A stretch of DNA of 64,000 nucleotides from Guyparkeria hydrothermalis (GTDB lineage: Bacteria; Pseudomonadota; Gammaproteobacteria; Halothiobacillales; Halothiobacillaceae), in assembly GCF_023555375.1 (NCBI RefSeq), contig NZ_JAJSEE010000006.1, positions 62,001 through 126,000 on the forward strand, read 5' to 3'. A model generated the notes under the pieces. The model ran no database searches and was not told the DNA's origin. It worked only from the letters and a program-made list of their open reading frames with translations. Below are positions 15,813 through 56,111 of the stretch, piece after piece. A program made the translations under genes and the position numbers. How positions within the stretch are numbered: the first letter of the stretch is position 1; every line of letters starts with the position of its first letter.

Positions 15813-17363
15813 TCAGTCCTCAAGGCCGATAATCTGCCACTCGCCGCCCTCACGCTCCCGGCGCAGGCAGACCGCCCGCCCGCCGGCCAACTCGCCGGCA
15901 CAGTAGTCGGCCGCCTCCTCGGCGGCCAGCCACCACCCGGTCTCGACCCGCTCGGTTTCCCCGCGGTAGCGCACCGGGGCATCGGGGCGGCGAGGCATCT
16001 CGAGCCACCACAGCGGCCGAAATGCCCCCGGCGGCGCGGCATCGCCGAGTTGCGCCGACGAGGTTTCGGTCGGCCCGCTGCGCCGTGACCTGCCCCGATA
16101 CGCCGACACGGGCTGCAGGCGGGAACGCCGCATCGGCACCAGGCCCGGCGCATCCTGCAGTCGATTGACGGCCTCGCTCCCCAACCGGGCCTGCAAGCGC
16201 TGCAAGAGGGCCTGTCGGTCGCGCACGCGCTCGTCGGCATCGGCGAACAGGCTGCCCTGCCCCGGGCGGGGCGTGACAAAGCGCTCGGCCTCCACCCGCA
16301 GGCAGGTCACCGGCGCCCGTTCCCCGACCGATTCCAGGCGCAGGCGCAATTGCTCCTGCCAGAGACCCACATCCCGCCCGGGCTCGGCGGTGGCCAGCTC
16401 CAGCCTCGTTGACGGGCGCGCCTCGTGATCCAGCCACACCACGAAATCGGCCACCGCGAGCTGCCGGCGACGCAGGAAATCCCCCAGCCCCACCAACGGC
16501 CCACGAGCAAGCAACAGCAGGCGGTCGATCTGATTGGCCGGATCCCAGAGGCTGACCTCGCGGGCGTAGCGGGCAGGCGGCACCAGGTCGGCCAACGGCC
16601 AGTCCCGTTCGGCGAACAGGCGGTCCAGGTCGACTAGCAAGGCCGGGTCGCTGCGCATGCCCACTCCCTCGCGCGGCAAGCGGCGCACCTCGCCCAGTCG
16701 ACGCAGGCCCAGCTCGGCGAATCGATCGATCCAGGTCACCGGCCAATCGAGCAAGGCCAGGGGCAACCGGCTGACCGCCGCCAGTTGTTCCCGTGCCGGG
16801 CAGAGCCAGGATGCCTCGTCATCCAGCACCGCGGCCAGTGCCCACGCGATCCGCGGATGCCCCGCCCCCGCGGCCCGCACCACCAGGCCCCACGGCTGCA
16901 ATGCCTCGAGCAGGCGTGAAACCAGTGCCTCGAGCCCGCCGAACAGGGCCGCGCTGCCGCCGATTTCCAGCAACAGTCCGGGGCCGTTCTCCACGTCGCG
17001 ACCGACCGGCGGTGGCCGACTGACCCGCGAGGTGTAGGTCAGCGCCCACTCGCCCCACTCGGCCAGCCACGTCTCCACGGCTCGCTGGTCGATGGTCAGA
17101 CAGCGCAGCGGCACCGGGTCCGCCGGGTCGTGCGCCCGATGGCGGGAACGGGCGCCCGCCAGGCTCTGGCCGGCCTCGATCCCCCGTTCCCTTGCCGCGC
17201 GATTGACCGCCACGACCCGGCCGGCACGGCCCCCACCGTCCAGCAGCACCGCGGGAGGCGGTTGCCGACGTTCCGCCTCGGGGCAACGGCACTCGAACCA
17301 GGCCTCCGGGAAGCGCAGCGCCAGCCAATAGCTCTCGTGTCGCTCGGTCGAGTGGGTGGTCAT
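15813..17363 (-). CDS. imuB: ImuB, inactive Y-family polymerase of the SOS mutasome
   Basis: The 516-residue product aligns with the DinB/Y-family polymerase fold. It starts YWLALRFPEAWFECR, where active polymerases have an Asp-rich D-x-D-x-F motif; loss of these acids is typical of ImuB, which acts as a hub tying DnaE2 and ImuA to the sliding clamp. A little-finger-like region follows (GRDVGLWQEQLRLRLESV), and the C-terminus is basic and poorly conserved. The start is ATG at 17363 with GGAG before it. A near-perfect LexA box lies 20 nt upstream of the start. It diverges from lexA-imuA, whereas these genes are usually co-directional. No dnaE2 is visible. Confidence 0.88.
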   Translation of the reverse strand: MTTHSTERHESYWLALRFPEAWFECRCPEAERRQPPPAVLLDGGGRAGRVVAVNRAARERGIEAGQSLAGARSRHRAHDPADPVPLRCLTIDQRAVETWLAEWGEWALTYTSRVSRPPPVGRDVENGPGLLLEIGGSAALFGGLEALVSRLLEALQPWGLVVRAAGAGHPRIAWALAAVLDDEASWLCPAREQLAAVSRLPLALLDWPVTWIDRFAELGLRRLGEVRRLPREGVGMRSDPALLVDLDRLFAERDWPLADLVPPARYAREVSLWDPANQIDRLLLLARGPLVGLGDFLRRRQLAVADFVVWLDHEARPSTRLELATAEPGRDVGLWQEQLRLRLESVGERAPVTCLRVEAERFVTPRPGQGSLFADADERVRDRQALLQRLQARLGSEAVNRLQDAPGLVPMRRSRLQPVSAYRGRSRRSGPTETSSAQLGDAAPPGAFRPLWWLEMPRRPDAPVRYRGETERVETGWWLAAEEAADYCAGELAGGRAVCLRREREGGEWQIIGLED

Positions 17364-17382
17364 GGCGAACTCCGGGCATGGA

Positions 17383-17402
17383 TACTGTTCTTTTTTACAG
17401 TA
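17383..17402. promoter_or_regulatory. LexA (SOS) box between imuB and lexA
   Basis: TACTGTTCTTTTTTACAGTA fits CTGT-N8-ACAG exactly, and the flanking TA on both sides also matches the E. coli consensus. Its near edge is 20 nt upstream of the imuB ATG and 260 nt upstream of the lexA start. It should repress imuB directly. It could also autoregulate lexA-imuA if their promoter lies here; in that case the whole 237-bp palindrome at 17409-17645 becomes the lexA leader. Confidence 0.9.
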
Positions 17403-17408
17403 TACTTA

Positions 17409-17645
17409 AAGGAAACGCTGCACGAATCCGATATCGCTCTGCGCGTCTTGAGTCGGGCAGGTGCAAGGCGCTCGTCCGCCGCGGAAGGGTGATTCCCTTT
17501 CCAAGGACGAAACCGGATCGGCAGGACGCCGATCCGGCCGGCGTGAGCCGGCCCGAAGGGCGAGGTCCAAGGACGGACCTCGCGACGCAGCAGATGCCCG
17601 ACTCAAGGCGCGCAGAGCGATATCGGATTCGTGCAGCGTTTCCTT
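17409..17645 (+). repeat. Palindromic structured repeat, copy A (lexA leader)
   Basis: Two 51-bp arms (17409-17459 and 17595-17645) are inverted repeats with a single G-T mismatch at 17446. Between them lie further hairpins: 17473-17509 (CGTCC/GGACG enclosing GGAAGGGTGATTCCCTTTCC), 17513-17537 (a perfect 10-bp stem with a 5-nt loop), 17536-17553 (GGCCGGC-GTGA-GCCGGCC, with a GNRA tetraloop) and 17561-17582 (CGAGGTCC/GGACCTCG with a 6-nt loop). The direct repeat TACTT flanks it at 17403-17407 and 17645-17649. It shares arms and left module with the other three copies and lacks their right module. It ends 16 nt before the lexA start. Confidence 0.92.
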
Positions 17646-17661
17646 ACTTCCGCCAAGACCG

Positions 17662-18291
17662 ATGACCATGACCGAAACGAACACAGGCCGCCCCCTCACG
17701 CCCCGCCAGGCCGAGATCCTGGCGTTCATCCGCGACACCATCCGCGAGACCGGCATGCCGCCGACCCGAGCGGAGATCAACACCGCGCTCGGCTTTCGCT
17801 CGCCCAATGCCGCCGAAAGCCATCTCAAGGCACTGGCGAAAAAGGGCGCCATCGAGCTGGTGGGTGGCCGCTCCCGGGGCATTCGCCTGCCCGACGACAG
17901 CCACCGCGAGGAGCTGGCCGTGATCGGCCGGATTGCCGCCGGCAGCCCGGTGCTGGCGGCCGAGCACGTCGAGGCCCAGGTGCCGGTCAACCCGGCCCTG
18001 TTCCGTCCCCGCGCTGACTACCTGCTGCGGGTACGCGGCATGAGCATGCGCGATGCCGGGATCATGGACGGCGACCTGCTCGCCGTGCATCGCACCGAAG
18101 AGGTCCGTAACGGCCAGATCGTGGTCGCCCGGCTGGCCGACGAGGTGACGGTCAAGCGTTACCGGCGACGCGGGGCGAAGGTCTGGCTGATTCCCGAGAA
18201 CAGCGAGATGACCGCAATCGAGGTCGACCTGCGTCGCGACGAGCTGATCGTCGAGGGTCGCGTGGTCGGCGTGTTGCGCACCTTCGACTGA
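17662..18291 (+). CDS. lexA: SOS repressor LexA
   Basis: The 209-residue product has an N-terminal winged helix ([20 protein letters not shown]; the recognition region includes [18 protein letters not shown]) and a C-terminal self-cleaving domain. The cleavage site is A93-G94 in IAAGSP, with the catalytic pair S128 (RGMSMRDAG) and K165 (TVKRYRR). Their spacings equal those of E. coli LexA (A84, S119, K156). It represses DNA-damage genes until RecA filaments trigger cleavage. I use the ATG at 17662; another ATG two codons later is possible, and neither has a good ribosome site. The leader is occupied by palindromic repeat copy A, which may affect its expression. imuA follows after 50 nt. Confidence 0.95.
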
Positions 18292-18341
18292 CGGCCCTCC
18301 CCGGGGACCGGCAAGAGCGCCACATCATGGGAGAACGAGCC

Positions 18342-19142
18342 ATGGCGGGAAACGACGTCGCCGAGCTGCTGACCCGGCACGATATCTGGCGTGGCCGGCA
18401 GACGCGCCCGCCCGAGTCGGTTGCCGCCCCCTGCCCCAGCGGCTGGTCGACACTCGACGAGCTGCTCGGCGGCGGCTGGCCCGGCGAAGGGCTGGTGGAG
18501 CTCTATGCCGGTCGCGCGCCCAACGGACCCTGGCGCCGACCCTTCGATCGACTCGACACGACACCGCTCTCGTCGCAGCGGGACTGGTTCCAGGCATCCC
18601 TGGGCCATGGCCTCACCGCCCTGCTGATGCCCTGGTTGCGCCAACGAACCCGGGCGGGCAGCGTTGCGCTGATCAACCCCCCGGCCGTTCCCTGCGCCGA
18701 GCGCTGGCAACGGGAGGGGGTGACGCTCGACGAGCTGCTGGTCATCCAGCCACGCAACCTGCGCGAGCTGGGTTGGGCGACCGAGGAGGTGCTCCAGTCC
18801 GGCGCCTGCGCGCTGGTGATTGCCTGGCTGCCCCCGTTGGGGTTCGCCTTGCGCCGGCGGCTCAAGCTGGCCGCCGAAACCGGGCGCAGCTGCCTGGCCA
18901 CGCCCTACCCGTTTGGTCGGGACATGGCGGTTGGAGGCGGCACGCATGCCCCCTCCAGCCCGGCCTGGGTCCAGTTGAGCGTGCAACGCCAGACCGAGGG
19001 GGCGGACCGAGCCCTGAGCGTGCAACGACTCAAGCCCTTCCACCCGCGCCAGGTCCGACTCGAACTGGATGGCGATCCCGCCGACACGACGCCGGTCCGC
19101 GACACAGCGGGGCCGCCATTGGCGCTCGTCGACACGCGCTGA
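18342..19142 (+). CDS. imuA: ImuA, RecA-like SOS mutagenesis protein
   Basis: The 266-residue protein resembles ImuA, the RecA-fold partner of ImuB and DnaE2 in damage-induced translesion synthesis. Typical segments are CPSGWSTLDELLGGGWPGEGLVELY at the start and LLVIQPRNLRELGWATEEVLQSGACALVIAWLPP in the middle. The P-loop seen in true RecA is not conserved here (GRAPNGPWRRPF). The start is the ATG at 18342 with GGGAG at 18329-18333; ATG 18327 is an alternative. It lies 50 nt after lexA, probably one SOS-controlled operon, and ends 8 nt from the M48 protease stop on the other strand. Confidence 0.85.
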   Translation: MAGNDVAELLTRHDIWRGRQTRPPESVAAPCPSGWSTLDELLGGGWPGEGLVELYAGRAPNGPWRRPFDRLDTTPLSSQRDWFQASLGHGLTALLMPWLRQRTRAGSVALINPPAVPCAERWQREGVTLDELLVIQPRNLRELGWATEEVLQSGACALVIAWLPPLGFALRRRLKLAAETGRSCLATPYPFGRDMAVGGGTHAPSSPAWVQLSVQRQTEGADRALSVQRLKPFHPRQVRLELDGDPADTTPVRDTAGPPLALVDTR

Positions 19143-19150
19143 GGTAGAGG

Positions 19151-19942
19151 CTATCGCCCCGTGGCGCGGCGATACTCGGGCATCACGGAGGGGATGGCGC
19201 GCTCCAGCGCCTGGATGCGATTGCTGCTGTTCGGGTGGGTGCTGAGCCATTCCGGCCCGCCGCCACCGCCTCGTGCCTGCATCTTCTGCCACAGGCTGAC
19301 GGCCGCATGCGGGTCGTAACCCGCCCGCGCGGCCAGCAGCAGCCCCACCTCGTCGGCCTCGAGCTCCATGCGCCGACTAAACGGCAGGTCGACTGCCACG
19401 GTGGCCACCTGCTGCGCCATCGCCGCGGTGCGGCCATCCAGTCCACCGAGCGCCGAGGCCACCGACAGGCCCATCTGCTGGGTCATCGCCATCGACATCT
19501 TCTCGCGCGTGTGCCCCGACAGGGCGTGGGCCACCTCGTGGGCGATCACCTGCGCCAGCTCGTCGTCGCTGGGCTGGATCTTGTCGAGCATGCCGGTGTT
19601 GATGCCCACCTTGCCGCCGGCCATCGCGAAGGCGTTGACGCTGTCATCGCGGAACACGCGACTTTCCCACTGCCATCCGCCCGCCTGCGGGTAGACCCGG
19701 ATCGCCTGCGGCACGATGCGCTGCGTGATGCGCTGCACCCGTTGGCTGGCGGGATGGGAGGCCGGCAGGGTCGGCTTCTGCTCCGTCATCTGGGAATAGG
19801 CCTGGTAGGCCATCTGGTTGGCCTGGCCCTCCGGCATGATCATCAACTGGCTGCGCCCCGTGACCGGGTGGGTCGCGCAACCGGCCGTCACCAGCAGGGC
19901 CCCCGCCAGGGTGACGGCCATCGGCAAACGTGGCACACGCAT
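19151..19942 (-). CDS. M48-family metalloprotease, outer-membrane or periplasmic lipoprotein
   Basis: The 263-residue protein begins with a lipoprotein signal ending LLVTAGC, so C22 should be lipidated. The zinc site HEVAH (in VIAHEVAHALSGH) and the distal glutamate in LEADEVGLLLAARAGYDP are both present. This fits the LoiP/YcaL/BepA-like M48 peptidases that monitor outer-membrane protein assembly. No TPR region is present, which favours the LoiP type over BepA. An upstream terminator (19974-20003) separates it from the HDOD gene, so it probably has its own promoter. Confidence 0.92.
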   Translation of the reverse strand: MRVPRLPMAVTLAGALLVTAGCATHPVTGRSQLMIMPEGQANQMAYQAYSQMTEQKPTLPASHPASQRVQRITQRIVPQAIRVYPQAGGWQWESRVFRDDSVNAFAMAGGKVGINTGMLDKIQPSDDELAQVIAHEVAHALSGHTREKMSMAMTQQMGLSVASALGGLDGRTAAMAQQVATVAVDLPFSRRMELEADEVGLLLAARAGYDPHAAVSLWQKMQARGGGGGPEWLSTHPNSSNRIQALERAIPSVMPEYRRATGR

Positions 19943-19973
19943 CAGACTGTCCTCTTCAAACCGGCAAACGCAT

Positions 19974-20003
19974 AAAAAAACCCCGATCTCACGAAGACCG
20001 GGG
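19974..20003 (-). terminator. Rho-independent terminator downstream of the HDOD gene and repeat copy B
   Basis: On the minus strand CCCCGGTCT-TCGTG-AGATCGGGG forms a 9-bp stem with one G-T pair, followed by TTTTTTT (complement of 19974-19980). It lies beyond palindromic repeat copy B, so the HDOD mRNA should carry that repeat in its 3' untranslated region. Confidence 0.85.
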
Positions 20004-20041
20004 TTGTTGGTATCGGTTCCTCACCCGTCGGCGATTCTTGC

Positions 20042-20307
20042 GGAAGGTCTGCACGAATCCGATACCACTCTGCGCACCTTGAGCCGGGCAGATGCAAGGC
20101 GCTCGTCCGCCGTGGAAGGGTGATTCCCTTTCCAAGGACGACAACGCAGCAGATGCCCGGCTCAAGGCGCGCCCGGCGGGGATTGGCGAGTCGCCCGTGC
20201 TCGGCGTTGCGATGCCTTGACGTGGCCACCGGCACGCCCGCGACATCGCGCCTTGATCACGAACGACTCGCCAAGCCAGAGTGGCATCGGATTCGTGCAG
20301 ACCTTCC
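20042..20307 (+). repeat. Palindromic structured repeat, copy B (3' of the HDOD gene)
   Basis: The terminal arms GGAAGGTCTGCACGAATCCG and its complement at 20288-20307 extend to about 30 bp with one mismatch. Inside are a left module (20077-20090 pairing with 20154-20167, enclosing GGAAGGGTGATTCCCTTTCC) and a right module (TTGGCGAGTCG at 20183-20193 pairing with 20264-20274). The extra three-hairpin insert of copies A and D is absent. The element starts directly at the HDOD stop codon (20308) and ends about 40 nt before its terminator. Orientation is given by the left module coming first on the plus strand, as in all four copies. Confidence 0.9.
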
Positions 20308-21117
20308 TTAGCCACCCAGGGCGCGAATCGCCTCGTCGAGCTCGTCGTCGATCATGCTCGACTCGAGATCCACCCCGAGCTTTTCCGCGGCCATGATCGG
20401 GCGATCGTCCGGCGTGCGGCTGATACCTCGCGCCTGGGCAATCGCGCAGATCACCACGTCACTGTAGTTGGGATCGCCGTCATGCTGGTAGCCGAGATCG
20501 CCACAGTGCTCGATCACCTCGGCGAACATGTCGGGGAAGTCCCAGGCCTTGACGATATTACCGCCCAGGCGCGATTGCAGGCTTTCGACCAGCTCGTTGA
20601 GCACCGCCGGCGCGTCCTGCAGCTTGGGGATGTCCTCGGCGACCACGATTACCGGGATGCCGCCCACGCTGTGCAGCAGACCCGCGAGCAGGGCCTGGTC
20701 GGGATCGAGCTTGGTGTGCCGGCGGGCGATGTGGTTCGCCAATGCCGCCACCTGGGTGGAAAACGCCCAGTGGTCGCGCATGATGCGCTTGATGGTGGGC
20801 GTGTCGGCATGGAACAGCTGCTTGGCCGACAGCGAGACGATCAGCTGGCTGACCGTTCGCATCCCCAACCGCGAGACGATCTGGTTGAGGTTGTCGATGT
20901 GCTGAGCGCCGCGATACAGCGGGCTGTTCGCTACCTGGATCAGGCGGGCGGCGATCGCCGGATCCTGCGAGATCACCTCGACCAGATCGCTCGCCGAGCT
21001 GTTGGGGTCATCGATGATCCGCCGGGCGCGCATCGCTACATCGGGCAGCACGGGCAAGGAGATGCCCTTGTCGCGGATCTTGTTGATGATCGCCTGTTCA
21101 AGTGCCGGATTGGCCAC
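20308..21117 (-). CDS. HDOD-domain protein (putative signalling regulator)
   Basis: The protein of 269 residues is almost entirely one HDOD domain, a helical relative of HD phosphohydrolases that lacks full metal ligands. Visible landmarks are LPVLPDVAMRARRIIDDPN, ISQDPAIAARLIQVANSPLY, IVSRLGMRTVSQLIVSLS and LLAGLLHSVGGIPVIVVAED. Such proteins usually act in signalling and have no proven catalytic activity. I choose the GTG at 21117 because AGGGAG sits 8 nt before it; an upstream GTG at 21147 gives 10 more residues without a good site. The stop codon is immediately followed by repeat copy B. Its target process is unknown. Confidence 0.88.
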   Translation of the reverse strand: MANPALEQAIINKIRDKGISLPVLPDVAMRARRIIDDPNSSASDLVEVISQDPAIAARLIQVANSPLYRGAQHIDNLNQIVSRLGMRTVSQLIVSLSAKQLFHADTPTIKRIMRDHWAFSTQVAALANHIARRHTKLDPDQALLAGLLHSVGGIPVIVVAEDIPKLQDAPAVLNELVESLQSRLGGNIVKAWDFPDMFAEVIEHCGDLGYQHDGDPNYSDVVICAIAQARGISRTPDDRPIMAAEKLGVDLESSMIDDELDEAIRALGG

Positions 21118-31891: not shown

Positions 31892-32160
31892 GGGAAGGTC
31901 TGCATGAATGGCATACCGCTCTGCACGCCTTGAGTCGGGCAGATGCAAGGCGCTCGTCCGCCGCGGAAGGGTGATTCCCGCATCCAAGGACGACAACGCA
32001 GCAGATATCCGGCGCAAGGTGCCCCCAGCGGGGCTTGGCGAGTCGCCCGTGCTCCGCGTTGCGCTGTCTTGACGTGGCCACCGGCACGCCGGTGACACCG
32101 CGCCTGGATCACGAACGACTCGCCAAGCCAGAGTGGTATGACATTCGTGCAGACCTTCCC
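31892..32160 (+). repeat. Palindromic structured repeat, copy C (between initiator tRNA genes)
   Basis: The terminal arms GGGAAGGTCTGCATGAATG and their complement (ATTCGTGCAGACCTTCCC) are paired with a few mismatches. The right module stem CTTGGCGAGTCG (32034-32045) pairs perfectly with 32116-32127. The left module is the short form without the three-hairpin insert, like copy B. The direct repeat CTTG flanks it (31889-31892 and 32160-32163). Its right end touches the -35 box of the second tRNA gene. A one-base length difference from copies A and B inside the left module shifts every reading frame, which argues against coding. Confidence 0.9.
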
Positions 32161-55760: not shown

Positions 55761-56111
55761 GGGAAACTCTGCACGATTCGATGACGTCTCTGCGGGACCT
55801 CCAAGGGTCCAGATGCAAGGCGCAGTCCGCCGTGAAGGGCCGTCGCCCTTTACAAGGGCTGGACCGGATCGGCTCGACGCCGATCCGGCCGGCGCGAGCC
55901 GGCCCGAAGGGCGGGGTTCACGGACGAACCCCGCGACGCCGCAGATGGGCCCTTGGAGGCCCGCCCGGACGGGGCTCGCGGGTTTGCCCGCACTCGTCGT
56001 TGCCGTCCCTCGACGGGCCCGAGTGATCGCCCTGGGCCCGCCTTCGGACCGGCGCCTTGATTGCGGGCAAACCCGCGAGCCAGAGATGCCATCGCATCAT
56101 GCAGAGTTTCC
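55761..56111 (+). repeat. Palindromic structured repeat, copy D (rdgC-purB), longest form
   Basis: This 351-bp copy has every module. The arms GGGAAACTCTGCACGATTCG and the opposite ATGCAGAGTTTCC are inverted repeats with some mismatches. The left module carries a CCTCCAAGGGTCCA stem. The A-type insert follows: a 10-bp stem identical in sequence to that of copy A with a different loop, GGCCGGC-GCGA-GCCGGCC with a GNRA loop, and CGGGGTTC/GAACCCCG. The right-module stem (55974-55992 with 56062-56080) is a perfect 19 bp, unlike the 11-12 bp stem of copies B and C. CTAG flanks it at 55757-55760 and 56112-56115. Confidence 0.92.

Follow-up and report, generated by a model that had tools for sequence, protein, structure and literature searches.

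A palindrome in the lexA leader of Guyparkeria hydrothermalis is very probably an inserted copy of a dispersed, MITE-like repeat

The lexA leader of Guyparkeria hydrothermalis contains a 237-bp palindrome, here called copy A, that lies between a LexA box and the lexA start codon. Its position raises the question of whether it serves the regulation of the SOS response or reached this site as a mobile sequence. A sequence-only reading of the 64,000-nt stretch of DNA analysed here (the window) had suggested that copy A lowers LexA translation or separates lexA from its operator. Our analysis indicates that copy A is very probably a non-autonomous, MITE-like transposable repeat that entered the short leader of lexA in this one species of Guyparkeria. 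Copy A belongs to a dispersed family with defined termini, several size classes, target duplications that are evident for the set as a whole, and empty sites in congeners. The features of the locus and the copies found in the window are listed in Table 1.

Table 1. Features of the lexA locus and copies of the repeat, in window coordinates
Feature	Position	Strand	Remarks
imuB-like gene, divergent from lexA	15813–17363	−	Weak IMS/Y-polymerase match, E = 0.016
Predicted lexA promoter, TGGATA-16-TATACT	17379–17406	+	−10 abuts the LexA box; position conserved in congeners
LexA box, CTGTTCTTTTTTACAG	17385–17400	+	Intact; common to lexA and the divergent imuB-like gene; conserved in congeners
Copy A, palindromic MITE-like element, 237 bp	17409–17645	+	TIR-to-TIR core GG...CC at 17411–17643, 233 bp
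Copy A, left 51-bp arm	17409–17459	+	Terminal inverted repeat and stem of left hairpin
Copy A, apical insert with extra hairpins	17512–17584 (approximate limits)	+	Resembles the insert of the 338–350-bp copies, e.g. 55762–56111
Copy A, right 51-bp arm	17595–17645	+	Differs from the left arm by one T-G mismatch
lexA	17662–18291	+	TIGR00498, 240.7 bits
imuA-like gene, downstream of lexA	18327–19142	+	NF033429, E = 1.5e-33, under its curated cut-off
Second window copy, 266-bp class	20042–20307	+	No element between the flanks in G001, G002, G006 and G009
Third window copy, 267 bp	31893–32159	+	Exact CTTG/CTTG duplication; empty in G002 and G006; 338-bp relative in G001
Fourth window copy, 350-bp class (second subfamily)	55762–56111	+	No element in G002, G004, G005 and G009

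The earlier description of copy A as a near-perfect 237-bp palindrome holds for its arms, which make up 102 of the 237 bp, and not for the 135-bp interior, which is composed of smaller hairpins. An inverted-repeat search and reading of the sequence both confirm the 51-bp arms, in which the single mismatch places a T against a G and forms a G-T pair; the longer inverted repeat at 17409–17464 and 17590–17645 (56 nt) is 95% complementary. The element ends 16 nt upstream of the ATG at 17662, as had been noted; in congeners, the conserved lexA start corresponds to the in-frame ATG at 17668, 22 nt from the end of copy A. The 266-bp form of the repeat consists of an outer helix and two hairpins. Copy A is a one-armed variant without the right hairpin: its outer inverted repeat continues directly into the left hairpin as a single 51-bp stem, the longest found in this analysis, and the hairpin insert of the second subfamily is located at the tip of copy A. 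An open frame that begins at a GTG inside copy A (17461–18291) runs in frame into lexA, and automatic annotation could use it to give LexA a false N-terminal extension. LexA is 92–94% identical to its nearest records, from Guyparkeria and other Halothiobacillaceae.

A search of the organism's own 2.43-Mb genome with the repeat returned 84 matching pieces at about 40 places, and a terminus pattern gave 128 matches, compared with one for the reversed control pattern. Pairing of inverted termini identifies at least 53 elements shorter than 600 bp, a minimum because paired copies were counted in fetched stretches of the genome only. Twenty-three of these are exactly 266 bp long, and the other size classes are approximately 68–93, 140–180, 199–233 and 338–350 bp; the main classes are those of 266 and 338–350 bp. 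The terminal inverted repeats are about 30 bp long, covary and begin GGRA...CTGCACGAA; 15–20 of the 20 end bases match across the 53 elements, as expected of a MITE family, and the small size, high copy number and empty sites in relatives fit the same class. Exact 4-bp target duplications flank 12 of the 53 elements, compared with 3.66 in permutations that preserve base composition, and none of 5000 shuffles reaches 12. The same permutation test finds no excess of 3-bp duplications. The consensus of the flanks is (C/T)TA(G/A), which is YTAR-like. Terminus matches also lie at or near the G000 contig ends C3:303832, C4:50, C5:50 and C9:135, so some assembly gaps are probably due to the repeat family.

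Whether close relatives lack the repeat at this locus had been proposed as a check on the sequence-only reading, and all nine congeners in which lexA was found do lack it. In these genomes the leader that follows the LexA box is about 22 nt long (48 nt in G007), and the two flanks of copy A, namely the imuB side with its LexA box and lexA itself, adjoin each other. Copy A is therefore neither ancestral nor an assembly join, and it is private to one Guyparkeria species. Several contig ends do fall in or beside these repeats, as would be expected if the repeat had joined unrelated flanks during assembly, but the adjacency of both flanks in all nine congeners makes such an artefact extremely improbable. 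The lexA site is empty in G001, which holds a related element at the 31893 site. Copy A has no exact duplication (the flanks, TAAA on the left and TTAC on the right, match imperfectly), and the evidence for its insertion is therefore provided by the empty sites; the target duplication expected of a MITE is seen in the 4-bp set and at the third window copy with its empty site.

At the third copy, CTTG is present on both sides of the element, and G002 and G006 hold a single CTTG. The 338-bp element of G001 occupies the same place with the same duplication, so this insertion is probably older than the G000–G001 split. The difference in length implies either that the element was lengthened or shortened once in place or that two insertions occurred at the site. 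The third copy (31893–32159; L149) abuts the TTGACA −35 element of a tRNA promoter, and its left flank resembles an old element end (GATTCGTGCGGGGTTTCCC).

The LexA box is the only perfect CTGT-N8-ACAG in the window, in agreement with the earlier claim of a single box. Use of the conserved promoter that overlaps this box would place the transcript start at approximately 17412–17415, inside the first bases of copy A, and lexA mRNA would then begin with a very stable fold, as had been anticipated. The leader RNA with copy A has a folding energy of −180 kcal/mol (z = −13 relative to shuffles), far beyond chance. The suggestion that the repeat parts lexA from its operator is not supported with this promoter, since the box and the −10 remain together upstream of copy A and the operator is not moved away from the promoter. 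Copy A sits between the −10 and the start region, and thus interrupts neither the LexA box nor the promoter nor the coding sequence. No terminator-like site was found at copy A.

Nor does the computed structure bear out a lowering of LexA translation. Around the start codon (−20 to +20), the mean unpaired probability is 0.74 whether the element is present or the flanks are joined directly, and it spans 0.46–0.80 in congeners; the fold is thus unlikely to hinder initiation by masking the start. A clear ribosome site is indeed missing, as the sequence-only reading stated, but the repeat is not the cause: a Shine-Dalgarno-like motif is absent upstream of lexA in eight of the nine congeners and present in G007 alone. 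The insertion therefore destroyed no ribosome site; the lack of one is ancestral.

These observations bear on the idea that the palindrome was selected as a cis regulator of lexA, acting through an mRNA fold that reduces the synthesis of LexA and moves the SOS set point. In favour of this idea are the high stability of the fold where the mRNA is predicted to begin and the position of the promoter upstream of the palindrome, and MITEs can alter the expression of adjacent genes (PMC10969869, PMC2229807). Against this, the element is at lexA in one species only, so that the conservation in relatives expected of an SOS regulatory element is not seen; the same sequence family is present at more than 50 unrelated loci; and neither start-codon access nor the lack of a ribosome site can be attributed to it. 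We consider such a regulator rather improbable. The data do not show copy A to be a new SOS control device, and its effect on LexA is most likely small. Transcription would place the hairpin at the 5′ end of lexA mRNA, where RNase III, reported to cleave Correia-element transcripts (PMC10969869), might cut it; by analogy with Correia-type elements, an effect on lexA mRNA through RNase III or altered stability is possible.

Pairing of the arms is maintained throughout the family. Across 29 elements drawn from both subfamilies and from two genera, pairing is seen in 97.1% of cells, and 46 of 94 pairs show two-sided changes, a value reached by none of 500 shuffles; cells with two-sided changes number 282, compared with 76 in shuffles. 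In the first subfamily alone, the outer helix shows a clear excess of pairing (97.8%; shuffled maximum, 92.9%), as does the right arm, and the left arm shows a slight one. Much of the inner covariation signal is a single old difference between the subfamilies. Both hairpins of the 266-bp element contain an asymmetric internal loop, CAAGGCG/CAACGC, which is nearly invariant across genera. We observed this loop in the window at 20042–20307 and 31893–32159 and in L239:1502–1767.

The extent of pairing, the two-sided changes across subfamilies and genera, and the conserved loop in both hairpins are features that a structured RNA, or an RNA-level regulatory element selected for its fold and spread to leaders and trailers, would also display. 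The departures from Watson–Crick pairing do not behave accordingly: G-U departures occur in 25 columns and A-C departures in 26, and their counts are also about equal when a few fixed G-U columns are excluded, so neither strand behaves as RNA. By a crude ORF rule, the gene contexts of the copies are variously tandem, convergent and divergent; no Rfam match was obtained at E ≤ 1 for window positions 16800–21000, and template switching, which homogenises arms, yields the same covariation (PMC8794818). An RNA-level function for the family is thus unlikely.

Two-sided changes that carry no bias of G-U over A-C point instead to maintenance of pairing at the DNA level, for which we favour template-switch correction, recognition of folded DNA, or both. 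Template-switch correction of quasipalindromes (PMC8794818, PMC7202029) accounts for the matching changes in the two arms. Such correction is a mutational process rather than an element, and by itself it does not explain the conserved CAAGGCG/CAACGC loop. A broader proposal combines these properties: an element of the Halothiobacillaceae would be kept at full length as a junction of two hairpins that share this loop, under selection because an as yet unrecognised enzyme mobilises it by acting on the folded DNA itself; at lexA, a single copy would have become the 5′ end of the mRNA and would tune LexA through RNase III processing. Taken as a whole, this proposal is doubtful, and we give it little credence.

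The repeat was matched in 10 of 11 Guyparkeria genomes, the exception being a 64%-complete assembly. The full repeat query had no match in other genera of the Halothiobacillaceae. One other genus of the family has 265–266-bp elements with the same ends, second-subfamily motifs and CTAG or CAAG duplications. The same genus also carries, at L251, L255 and L246, separate families of approximately 152 and 173 bp. Their ends are GGAAGGTCTGCACAAATG, similar to those of the repeat, their flanks are CTAG-like, and they are probably related MITEs. Plasmid and phage records contained no match to the repeat.

Mobility of such a non-autonomous repeat would depend on a cut-and-paste transposase supplied in trans. 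The YTAR target suggests that this enzyme was probably IS5-like, and its source would now be absent or unrecognised. The repeat resembles the IS5 family in its 4-bp, YTAR-like duplication and in ends that begin GGRA; the similarity of the ends may extend beyond these first bases. YTAR is the reported IS5 target duplication (PMC10359306), and the flanks of the repeat agree with an IS5-derived element in this respect. Unlike in that family, no IS5-type transposase with the repeat's ends was found in the genus. The search covered four Pfam families (PF01609, PF13340, PF05598 and PF01797), none of which yielded a transposase bearing these ends: PF01609 occurs once in the genus, without the termini; PF13340 is absent from the genus; and PF05598 is represented only by a pseudogene in a genome that lacks the repeat. 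Most comparable repeats of bacteria likewise have no autonomous partner that has been found (PMC2229807).

The two inverted hairpins per element, located in intergenic DNA, recall REP/BIME repeats, which are mobilised by RAYT tyrosine transposases, and RAYT-type genes (PF01797) are present in six of the 11 genomes of the genus. The Guyparkeria repeat is much longer than REP/BIME and has defined termini. It is unlinked to RAYT genes: the repeat-rich genomes G004, G006 and G008 have no PF01797 match, and the termini are absent from every RAYT locus fetched. The family also has 4-bp target duplications, which are not expected from RAYT. Mobilisation by RAYT is accordingly very improbable.

The closest known counterparts of the repeat are RUP, Correia/NEMIS and ERIC, which are IS-derived MITEs (PMC10969869, PMC2229807). 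Like these, it lacks recognised coding capacity, is bounded by terminal inverted repeats, duplicates its target, reaches a high copy number, lies mostly in intergenic DNA and has strongly folding transcripts. The Guyparkeria repeat differs from these elements in being G+C-rich and about 266 bp long, in having no partner IS among those searched, in its 4-bp YTAR-like target in place of TA, and in pairs with two-sided changes over its whole length. Its G+C-richness and full-length covariation are untypical of reviewed MITEs (PMC10969869). Our literature searches found nothing on a MITE combined with lexA or an SOS box, or on palindromic MITEs of Halothiobacillus, and such repeats go unmentioned in the Guyparkeria pangenome paper.

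The analysis turns a puzzling regulatory claim at lexA into an ordinary insertion event, and it brings to light a repeat family of sulfur-oxidising bacteria for which the literature searched holds no description. Its combination of clear occupied and empty sites with many arm changes makes the family well suited to distinguishing selection from template-switch correction as the process that preserves long palindromes. Should copy A affect the amount of LexA, it would provide a naturally occurring case of SOS retuning by a mobile repeat.
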